From contig NC_009634.1 in NCBI RefSeq assembly GCF_000017165.1, positions 1 through 64,000 on the forward strand: 64,000 nucleotides of DNA, written 5' to 3'. This DNA comes from Methanococcus vannielii SB (GTDB lineage Archaea; AGJL01; Methanococci; Methanococcales; Methanococcaceae). This document shows, piece after piece, positions 38 to 29,867 of the stretch. Within the stretch, counting starts at the first letter, position 1. Every line of letters begins with the position of its first letter. The notes below the pieces were generated by a model that saw only the letters and a program-made list of their open reading frames with translations, was not told the DNA's origin and did no database searches. The position numbers and the translations under genes are program-made.

Positions 38-1669
<1,632 letters not shown>

Positions 1670-1684
1670 ATTTTTTTGCCCAGC

Positions 1685-1704
1685 TCGTAATTTTTAGATT
1701 ACGA
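1685..1704 (+). other. Hairpin in the 16S-23S spacer
   Basis: TCGTAAT at 1685-1691 and ATTACGA at 1698-1704 form a 7-bp stem with a 6-nt loop between the two processing stems. The 16S-23S spacer of about 140 nt holds this hairpin and the processing arms only. No tRNA-Ala, which is common in this position in archaea, is present. Confidence 0.5.
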
Positions 1705-1731
1705 TCTAGGGGCCGGATATTAATGATGGTC

Positions 1732-4775
<3,044 letters not shown>

Positions 4776-4796
4776 TTTTAATTTAACACTTTGACA

Positions 4797-4906
4797 TAAC
4801 GGTCAAAGCGGAGGTGTAACATCCGATCCCATCCCGATCTCGGAAATTAAGCCCTCCAGCGATTCTTTAAGTACTGCTATCTAGTGGGAACAAAGTGACG
4901 CCGTTA
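4797..4906 (+). rRNA. rrf: 5S ribosomal RNA
   Basis: 5S rRNA immediately downstream of 23S, in the usual archaeal 16S-23S-5S order. The ends TAACGG (4797-4802) and CCGTTA (4901-4906) pair to form helix I. The internal CCCATCCCGATCTCGGAAATTAAG-like segment (4828-4852) is the conserved loop B/C region of 5S rRNA. The length of about 110 nt is slightly short for 5S rRNA, so the exact ends are approximate. Confidence 0.9.
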
Positions 4907-4925
4907 GTCACTTTTTAATTTAACT
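4907..4925 (+). terminator. T-rich end of the rRNA operon
   Basis: A short T run (GTCACTTTTTAATTT) directly follows 5S rRNA. Archaeal RNA polymerase terminates at oligo-T without needing a hairpin, so this is the likely end of the rRNA transcript. It is followed by AT-rich sequence with a TATA-like segment (4925-4945) that may serve the next gene. Confidence 0.5.
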
Positions 4926-26577: not shown

Positions 26578-27147
26578 TTATTTAATATGTCTTAGTTCAA
26601 CTCCTTTTTTGTAGCAAAGATACATTACTCCAGTATCAAATCTTGCATCGTGAAAACCAACATCACTGCAACCATATGTATTTTTTGTAAATTTCAAGCC
26701 TTCTTTAGGGCATTGTTTTAAATAATCCATTAATTCAATTAGTTTTGGACGTTTATACTGCCTAACTCCCGGAATTTTGCAGATTTTTGTAAAGTGGCAC
26801 ATTGTACAAAATTTTTCTTTTGGAACATATTCTTCACCCAAACGCTCAATTTCAGCTTTTAAAAAGCGAATATCGAAAGAAATATTATGTCCAATTATCA
26901 CGGAATATTTTAGGTCGCTTAATACTTCTTTAATAGTATCTTCAAATACCAATCCTGATGAAAGTTCTTCTAAAATATCCTGCGTAAGCCCGTGAATTCT
27001 TGCAGCGCTCCTTGACATATGTTCTACCGAGTAATACTGATTAAATGCCTTTTTTATGTTCAATTCTTCATCGGTAACAAGGTATGAAAGCTGAGCAATT
27101 TGGCCAGGGTGGAGTCCTGTTGTTTCAGTATCCAAAAATACATACAT
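26578..27147 (-). CDS. DEDDh 3'-5' exonuclease (DnaQ-like)
   Basis: A 189-aa RNase T/DnaQ-type exonuclease. Asp6 and Glu8 in FLDTETTG, an Asp in GHNISFDIRF, and the HDARFD motif (His166, Asp171) supply all five DEDDh positions. A central cysteine/histidine cluster (CTMCHFTKIC) is present and could bind metal. Such proteins trim single-stranded DNA or RNA 3' ends. Its nucleic-acid substrate is not evident. It is separated from the helicase gene by the C/D sRNA gene on the other strand. Confidence 0.9.
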   Translation of the reverse strand: MYVFLDTETTGLHPGQIAQLSYLVTDEELNIKKAFNQYYSVEHMSRSAARIHGLTQDILEELSSGLVFEDTIKEVLSDLKYSVIIGHNISFDIRFLKAEIERLGEEYVPKEKFCTMCHFTKICKIPGVRQYKRPKLIELMDYLKQCPKEGLKFTKNTYGCSDVGFHDARFDTGVMYLCYKKGVELRHIK

Positions 27148-27256
27148 TTTTTACACATCTTAAACATCTTTAAATTCTATAACTTATTTTTAGAATAACT
27201 CAAGTTTATATATAAGGTTATTTAAGATTTAATAGAAATTATTATTCCGACTTTAA

Positions 27257-27326
27257 ATATGCAATGATGAGTGCCGACTTCACTGAGAATTCGTTCGATG
27301 AAGACAACGGGGACAGCTGAGCATAT
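27257..27326 (+). ncRNA. C/D box sRNA guiding 23S rRNA 2'-O-methylation
   Basis: All four boxes occur in order: C box ATGATGA (27264-27270), D' CTGA (27283-27286), C' ATGAAGA (27298-27304, one change from consensus) and D CTGA (27317-27320). An ATATGC/GCATAT terminal stem (27257-27262 with 27321-27326) closes a K-turn. The D' guide (12 nt) has a 10-bp match to 23S at 3536-3545, and the D guide a 9-bp match at 3833-3841. By the N+5 rule the methylated bases would be G3539 and C3837. Each guide is 12 nt, the length typical of archaeal sRNAs. It is GC-richer than its surroundings and ends in a T run. Confidence 0.85.
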
Positions 27327-27336
27327 CTTTTTTAAT
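27327..27336 (+). terminator. T run after the C/D sRNA
   Basis: CTTTTTTAAT directly follows the closing stem of the sRNA and fits intrinsic archaeal termination at oligo-T. Confidence 0.5.
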
Positions 27337-27366: not shown

Positions 27367-29622
27367 CTAAAAGCCGGATAATTTTTGTTGACCGTATTTT
27401 AACCCAAATTCGTCTAGTATTTTTTTACCGACTTTATCTCCAAAAGTAGAAATAATTTTTTCAGGATTTTTTAAAATATCCATTTTTGATTTTATTCCAA
27501 TGTTAAAAAGTCGTCTAGCTCTTACTCGACCAATATTTTTAATTTTTAAAAGTTCAATCAACTCTTCTTTTGCACCATATTCAATCCTAAATTCCATTTC
27601 TAAAAGTGCCTTGTAAATTTTATCATTATTTAACTTTACAAGTTTTGCAATTTCTTTTGAAGAATAAGTCATCCATCTAGCTTGGTCTACCTTGTATCTT
27701 AAAATTCCCGGCTCAATTCCATATTTTTCAAGAATTACTTCTTCAGGAGTTTCATTTATCCAGTCAAGAAACATTTTTGAATTTTTAAATGCTTCAATGT
27801 TTTCAATTGAATAGTCGGATATTTTTAACTTATCCATTTCTTGTATTAACTCAAGTTCTTCATCCATTTTAACCCTTAAAAGGGGCCTCATTTCAGTAGC
27901 CTTTGAAATTATGTAAAATATATACTGGTCTATGTTTGACCTATCCATATCGTTAATTTTTTCTTTTAGTTCATTTAACCCTTCAATTATTATTTCAGAA
28001 CTTAATGGGTCAATATATAATTCGGAAACACGTTTTCCAAGATTTGTAGGTTTGAATGATAAATTTGTTAATGTATCCATCCTTCTTTTTGAATCTAAAA
28101 CTAAATTATTTGAATTATCAAGCGTTAATTCTAAAACACGGTTTTTTTTTGGAGTAAAATCATCATCTAATGTTTCTATAAATTTGTTTTTTTCTAAAAA
28201 TTCCACAACCTTTGAAACATTCGTTAAAACTCCATGCAAATTTCCATATTGGTGTGCATAAAATGTATTTTTTATAAAATTAATTAATTCAGAAGTACTT
28301 TTTATTTCCAACGTAGCGATAAGTCCCAATATATGAACACGGAGTACTTTTTGGTTTGATAATTTTGAATAAATATTTTCCAAAGGTCCAGTTAAAGCTA
28401 AAAATGCTTTTTCAACGTCTTTTTCATTTTTTGCAAGGATTATTCCTTCACCATACGGGTCAAGGCCCGGCCTTCCAGCTCGCCCGATACACTGATGAAT
28501 TTCTAATTTTGGAATATCTATAAGACCGTTTTGACTGTAACGCCTGATATCTCGAATAATTGCCCTTCTACAAGGTAAATTTAATCCTGCTGAAAGTGTA
28601 GGAGTACAACAGATTACTTTTATAACTTTATTCCTAAATCCTTCTTCTACAGCTTTTCTATGCTGGTACGTAAGCCCTGCATGGTGAAATGCGACTCCTT
28701 TTTTTATACATTCTGAAAGTGATTTACATGTTTCAGTTGGGGTTTCTAAAATAGATAATATTTCTTCAGAAATGGAATTTAGATCGTTTAACTCTGCTTT
28801 TGAGAGATATTTTGTTAAATTATGTTTTTTAGATTCCCCAACTGCATTTCTTTTTGAATTACAAAATATTAAACAAGAACCCTTCTCATTTACTGAATCC
28901 ACTATTAAATCAGTTAAGTTATTTCTAGAAATCGATTTAACGGCCTTAAATGATTTTTTTTGAGAATCTTGATTATTTATATAATTTATTTCATTTTCAA
29001 GGTAAATTCCTTTTTTTAATTCGACAGGTCGCCATTCATCCGTTACTAATTTTGCATTTAACCAATTTGCAATTTCTTCTGGGTTTCCAACAGTTGCTGA
29101 AAGGCCAACTATTTGTGCATTAATGTTTTTTAATTTTGTTAAAATTACTTCTAAAGTTCCGCCACGTTCATTATCGCCTATTAAATGAATTTCATCGATT
29201 ACTGCAAGTGATAAGTCTTTTATCCATTCAATATTGTGCCTCATTAATGAATCCAATTTTTCAGACGTTGTAATAATTATATTATATTTTGAAAGGTCTT
29301 CCTTTGTATCATAGTCCCCAATAGACATTCCAACTTTTATCCCATACGTTTCATACTTTTTTTGAAATTCATCAAATTTTTCACTTGCTAATGCTTTTAG
29401 AGGCACTATAAAAAGTCCTTTTTTTCCAGTTAAATTATAATTTTCGTCCAAAACATGATTTAATAGTGCCATTTCGCCAATTAGTGTTTTACCACTTGCT
29501 GTTGGTATACATATTAAAAAATTTTTGGATTTATCAAGTAAGCCTTCTTCAATTACCTTTTTTTGAGGCGGCCTTAGTTCTTCAATTCCAATTTCATTAA
29601 GTAAGTTTAGTACATTTGTCAT
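27367..29622 (-). CDS. hel308: Hel308-type superfamily 2 DNA helicase
   Basis: A 751-aa Ski2-like ATPase that unwinds lagging-strand arms of stalled forks. Walker A PTASGKT (40-46), a DEIHLIGD Walker B and the QCIGRAGRPG motif VI are intact. The winged-helix and ratchet regions follow, and the C terminus has a helix-hairpin-helix (IKNIGRVRARRLFNIG). The ATG at 29622 is preferred because GGAA precedes it; an in-frame TTG at 29631 would add three residues. The length is slightly above the usual 680-720 aa. Hel308 and Hjm are the same family in archaea. Confidence 0.92.
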   Translation of the reverse strand: MTNVLNLLNEIGIEELRPPQKKVIEEGLLDKSKNFLICIPTASGKTLIGEMALLNHVLDENYNLTGKKGLFIVPLKALASEKFDEFQKKYETYGIKVGMSIGDYDTKEDLSKYNIIITTSEKLDSLMRHNIEWIKDLSLAVIDEIHLIGDNERGGTLEVILTKLKNINAQIVGLSATVGNPEEIANWLNAKLVTDEWRPVELKKGIYLENEINYINNQDSQKKSFKAVKSISRNNLTDLIVDSVNEKGSCLIFCNSKRNAVGESKKHNLTKYLSKAELNDLNSISEEILSILETPTETCKSLSECIKKGVAFHHAGLTYQHRKAVEEGFRNKVIKVICCTPTLSAGLNLPCRRAIIRDIRRYSQNGLIDIPKLEIHQCIGRAGRPGLDPYGEGIILAKNEKDVEKAFLALTGPLENIYSKLSNQKVLRVHILGLIATLEIKSTSELINFIKNTFYAHQYGNLHGVLTNVSKVVEFLEKNKFIETLDDDFTPKKNRVLELTLDNSNNLVLDSKRRMDTLTNLSFKPTNLGKRVSELYIDPLSSEIIIEGLNELKEKINDMDRSNIDQYIFYIISKATEMRPLLRVKMDEELELIQEMDKLKISDYSIENIEAFKNSKMFLDWINETPEEVILEKYGIEPGILRYKVDQARWMTYSSKEIAKLVKLNNDKIYKALLEMEFRIEYGAKEELIELLKIKNIGRVRARRLFNIGIKSKMDILKNPEKIISTFGDKVGKKILDEFGLKYGQQKLSGF

Positions 29623-29867
29623 GTTTTCCAACGTTTTAATTACTCTTATAATTTACTAGTTATCTAGTTTAAAAAATACCCCTATAATTTTATATAACTC
29701 TTAATATTCAAAAGTGAACTTCCGCTATATTTTAAACCATGGAATATTATTTAAGTCTTAAAACAAAGTTATTTTATTTAAACATTAGGTTCTGTAGCAT
29801 TTAACTTAATAAACTCTATAATTTAATAGATATAATAAGATATATATACATATTAATTAAAATATTA

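Follow-up and report, generated by a model that had tools for sequence, protein, structure and literature searches.

What occupies the gap between the exonuclease and helicase genes in the window, the whole 64,000-nucleotide stretch of Methanococcus vannielii SB DNA analysed here? A preliminary description had reported an otherwise empty gap of about 220 bp between an exonuclease gene and hel308, both on the other strand, and had assigned to it a box C/D sRNA gene. The gap measures 219 bp, and the two flanking open reading frames both lie on the minus strand (Table 1). Box C/D sRNAs are a long-established class of RNA in archaea. With a probability of roughly 0.93, we read positions 27257-27326 as a dual-guide box C/D sRNA with 23S rRNA nucleotides G1771 and C2069 as its targets; the gene very probably directs an RNA-methylating enzyme to two large-rRNA sites, and the gap, until now unannotated, gains a gene with two predicted methylation sites.

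The element carries the features that define the class. Boxes C, D', C' and D occur in this order with two 12-nt guides, all where they had first been described, and the 6-bp terminal stem beside boxes C and D, capable of forming a K-turn, is likewise present. The C'/D' motif, with a D'-C' spacer of 11 nt, contains the tandem GA letters of a K-turn or K-loop, and both guides fall within the 10-12 nt typical of rRNA- or tRNA-complementary guides, with the N+5 nucleotide paired. Box C' of the Methanococcus copies is one letter off the consensus RUGAUGA.

Table 1 Features of the sRNA locus, its neighbours and its predicted targets (window coordinates).
Feature	Position	Strand	Basis
16S-23S-5S rRNA operon	153-4909		
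23S target of D' guide (23S 1768-1777; G1771 = window 3539)	3536-3545	+	pairing
23S target of D guide (23S 2065-2073; C2069 = window 3837)	3833-3841	+	pairing
DnaQ-type exonuclease ORF (RNase_T domain)	26578-27147	-	ORF, domain
TATA-like stretch about 45 nt upstream of sRNA, possible promoter	27206-27215	+	sequence
Box C/D sRNA core with terminal stem	27257-27326	+	boxes, simulation, orthologs
Terminal stem, 5' strand ATATGC	27257-27262	+	sequence; covariation
Box C ATGATGA	27264-27270	+	sequence
D' guide GTGCCGACTTCA, 12 nt	27271-27282	+	10 Watson-Crick pairs with 23S nt 1768-1777; predicted site G1771
Box D' CTGA	27283-27286	+	sequence
Internal hairpin GAA-UUCG-UUC (stem I, internal K-turn at C'/D')	27287-27296	+	orthologs, covariation
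GAU bulge 3' of internal hairpin	27297-27299	+	orthologs, covariation
Box C' ATGAAGA	27298-27304	+	sequence
D guide CAACGGGGACAG, 12 nt	27305-27316	+	9 Watson-Crick pairs with 23S nt 2065-2073; predicted site C2069
Box D CTGA	27317-27320	+	sequence
Terminal stem, 3' strand GCATAT	27321-27326	+	sequence; covariation
T-run directly after stem, likely terminator	27328-27333	+	present in most orthologs
Archaeal DEAD-box helicase ORF, Hel308-like architecture	27367-29631	-	ORF, domain

Transcription of the sRNA from a promoter of its own is plausible, given neighbours on the opposite strand, TATA-like stretches upstream and a T-run downstream. TATA-like stretches precede the copies within the genus at varying distances, and most orthologs have a T-run after the terminal stem, although the stretch at 27206 could equally belong to the divergent exonuclease gene. 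ARAGORN found no tRNA in the window.

The preliminary description had proposed a search with an archaeal C/D covariance model and a look at this gap in other members of Methanococcus. Comparison across Methanococcales revealed nearly invariant boxes, with 35 of 36 genomes carrying an ortholog. BLAST recovered the sRNA throughout the family (22 genomes of 22) and, partial matches included, in 34 of the 36 of the order. A covariance model built from 22 orthologs and searched in the 36 genomes scored above 72 bits in 32. The score in G019 was lower (43.5) because a 58-nt insert splits box D' from box C', and the orthologs of G024 (L139) and G030 (L085) scored 38-39, having kept the D half while the D' guide was replaced; both lie directly upstream of an ORF starting MRLLTLEEG, as in G022. 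No convincing ortholog was found in G032, an 81%-complete assembly. The terminal stem is 91.7% paired, with changes on both sides in four of six pairs, and its variants are compensatory (ATATGC/GCATAT, TGTGC/GCACA, ACTGC/GCAGT and TAACGC/GCGTTA). Across both helices the covariation score was 0.392; shuffles gave 0.145 and slid controls no more than 0.095. Orthologs in G004-G006 (L006, L007 and L008) have CGGA rather than CTGA as box D', together with a strong internal stem; the genes flanking L007 are unlike those in the window, so the sRNA gene or its neighbours have moved.

Target sites were assigned by the N+5 rule, placing the predicted 2'-O-methylation at 23S G1771 (E. coli 1670) for the D' guide and at C2069 (E. 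coli 1994) for the D guide; the host genome has four 23S copies. Shuffled guides matched as well in 5 of 400 cases for the D' guide (10 bp) and 15 of 400 for the D guide (9 bp). Taken alone, either guide match is only modestly improbable. The two predicted sites are about 300 nt apart in 23S rRNA. When the two stretches were cofolded, their CTAGTCG/CGACTAG flanks and the neighbouring GGG/CCC paired with each other, and each guide therefore addresses a different strand of the domain IV base. We take the helix closing this domain to be helix 61. That helix is described as a hotspot of predicted archaeal C/D methylation in Dennis et al. 2015 (PMC4644070). A literature search found no yeast equivalent of the C1994 site.

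On the sequences compared, the two guides track changes in their rRNA targets across relatives unusually clearly. The D target reads CTGTCCCCG in family f1, where D guides end in CGGGGACAG or near variants, and CTGTCCCGGGCC in family f2, where they end in CCTGGGACAG or CTCGGGACA; D guides form 8-10 bp with the target of their own family and 6-7 bp with that of the other. The D' target, GAAGTCGGCA, is constant in the genomes read except G024, in which both rRNA operons carry a G-to-C change exactly at the predicted D' methylation site and the syntenic sRNA has the same D guide but a different D' guide. No target above 6 bp was found for this replaced guide in the rRNA compared. The replaced D' guide of G030 forms 10 bp with another 23S site; the 23S rRNA of G030 itself was not found. 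Guide turnover in L085 and L139 is confined to one half of a dual-guide sRNA. The sRNA offers a clear natural record of co-evolution: families that differ in the rRNA target differ correspondingly in the guide, and mutation of a target coincides with a replaced guide.

The D' guide has a second possible partner in 16S rRNA, where nt 1421 (aligned to E. coli G1494, in the decoding region) would be the N+5 position of an 8-bp Watson-Crick match. Methylation at E. coli G1494 is predicted for M. maripaludis in Dennis et al. 2015 (PMC4644070), and a box C/D sRNA whose D' guide acts mainly on this 16S site, and not on 23S G1771, is an unlikely reading though the best of the alternatives. Against it, the invariant guide letters 10-11 from D' (T18 and G19) extend the match to 23S only, whereas the letter next to D', which pairs only with 16S, varies among A, G and T. 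The G024 genome, where 23S G1771 is C, favours the 23S site as well, because the guide was lost where that site had changed; being a single event, this case supports rather than proves the assignment. We accordingly ranked 16S G1494 below 23S G1771 as the main D' target. Points counted against the reading as a dual guide for 23S G1771 and C2069 were the modest improbability of each guide match alone, the off-consensus C' box, the CGGA box D' of G004-G006, this second 16S target and the single occurrence of the G024 event.

For the dual-guide sRNA, a mechanism can be proposed in which L7Ae would occupy both K-turns, the one at C/D and the internal one at C'/D', and recruit Nop5 and fibrillarin, whose genes are adjacent in the host genome (1491849-1493612 of 1,720,048 bp). 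The D' guide would then pair with 23S 1768-1777 and the D guide with 2065-2073, leading to 2'-O-methylation of G1771 and C2069. With one site on each strand of the helix that closes domain IV, the ribonucleoprotein may also keep these strands together or apart while the ribosome assembles. Boxes, stems, orthology, pairing and guide-target co-variation are established by sequence; expression of the sRNA, assembly of the ribonucleoprotein, methylation and the chaperone role are inferred. An orphan or chaperone-only sRNA, which would form the particle and pair with 23S rRNA but leave it unmethylated, is improbable, even more so than a mainly 16S target. It would fit the location of the sites on the two strands of a single helix, an arrangement shared with the chaperone examples in Table 3 of Dennis et al. 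2015 (PMC4644070), but with either guide the N+5 position is Watson-Crick paired in those genomes that were checked, save where the D' guide was replaced.

Long-distance dual guides have been proposed as rRNA chaperones in PMC4644070. The examples given there, N. equitans sR15 and sR17 and, for 23S rRNA, I. hospitalis sR114 and T. tenax sR51, likewise direct one guide to each strand of a helix that closes a domain, and by a rough conversion of alignment numbers sR114 and sR51 fall in or near the same helix region. They differ from the window sRNA in species and in the exact nucleotides addressed, and the window sRNA is unlike them in having a target pair kept over nearly the whole order and in its guide-target co-variation. 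The same source describes archaeal C/D sRNAs of the same box order, guide length, terminal stem, size and N+5 rRNA targets, and seven RNA-seq-supported C/D sRNAs in M. maripaludis C5. M. maripaludis belongs to the genus of our host, within which copies of the sRNA differ little, and the seven probably include its ortholog. The 16S G1494 prediction for M. maripaludis in PMC4644070 fits the second-best D' target, which suggests, without proving, that the ortholog is listed; Table 3 on long-distance dual guides names no M. maripaludis RNA. Since this kind of RNA is already known, what is added is the gene, its target pair and the record of co-evolution. With its few C/D sRNAs and its genetic tractability, the genus would lend itself to examining whether dual-guide sRNAs help rRNA to fold.

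At 27257-27326 no Rfam family matched at or above its gathering threshold. All sub-threshold matches were to C/D-box families (best E 0.004-0.012), the closest resemblances being snoPyro_CD (RF00095, 24.6 bits against a threshold of 45), SNORD103 (RF00188, 24.5 against 45), sR17, sR1 and sR44; RF01144 scored 22.9 against 36. These are other families whose likeness to the window sRNA lies mainly in the boxes, and membership of RF00095, RF00188, RF01144 and the others was rejected on the scores. Shuffled sequences fold about as well as the element (minimum-free-energy z = -0.18), which is unsurprising in a guide RNA that stays mostly single-stranded, and the case for the sRNA rests on conservation and covariation instead. 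With generous spacing, the box pattern occurred once in the window, stem included, and in none of 300 windows simulated with a first-order Markov model. That box-like words fell together by chance in an intergenic region, a reading to which the short boxes, the ordinary fold energy and the low Rfam scores could be credited, is ruled out by these simulations and by the compensatory stem changes among orthologs conserved in 35 of 36 genomes. The identification of a C/D sRNA draws support from its orthologs, stem compensation, guide-target co-variation and the fibrillarin and Nop5 genes.

The internal motif differs between Methanococcus and its relatives. Each of the seven Methanococcus genomes has a D'-C' spacer with a covarying stem of 3-4 bp and, after it, a 3-nt GAU bulge, the full geometry of a K-turn (GAA-UUCG-UUC, GGA...UCC, GGAA-CCUU-UUCC, GAGC-UAA-GCUC and GAGU-AAU-ACUC), although this covariation rests on few sequences (6 to 9). 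Most relatives instead have a short K-loop at C'/D', with a weak 2-bp version of the stem in G008 and a 4-bp stem under the insert in G019, so the form has changed within one orthologous RNA. Both K-turn and K-loop are known at archaeal C'/D' motifs (PMC8413462), which makes the Methanococcus form, with the same stem I as the internal K-turn described there, a variation within the known range. We tentatively suggest, as a possibility less likely than not, that with its two guides a Methanococcales-wide sRNA clamps both strands of the helix that closes 23S domain IV, serving assembly as a chaperone besides guiding methylation, and that in Methanococcus the internal K-loop became a stem-closed K-turn, perhaps in connection with mesophilic growth. 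In the G019 ortholog (L021, G019:C1:1455244-1455355) the insert folds as a pair of hairpins (-14.5 kcal/mol), and a possible closure by GATT/AATC would extend the internal stem.

Three further C/D sRNA candidates were seen elsewhere in the host genome. The second (L072; 372569-372603, plus strand) has a K-loop and a D' guide, TGTTATCCCCGG, with a 12-nt pairing to 23S rRNA around nt 2510. A third (L073 and L093; 500125-500192, minus strand) is closed by the stem TTGGTG/CACCAA and matches the covariance model of the window sRNA weakly. The fourth (L078; 1483591-1483638, minus strand) has CCGA as box D' and a 6-bp internal stem, ATTGAA/TTCAAT, with an AAT bulge; the window sRNA is therefore not alone in having an internal K-turn.
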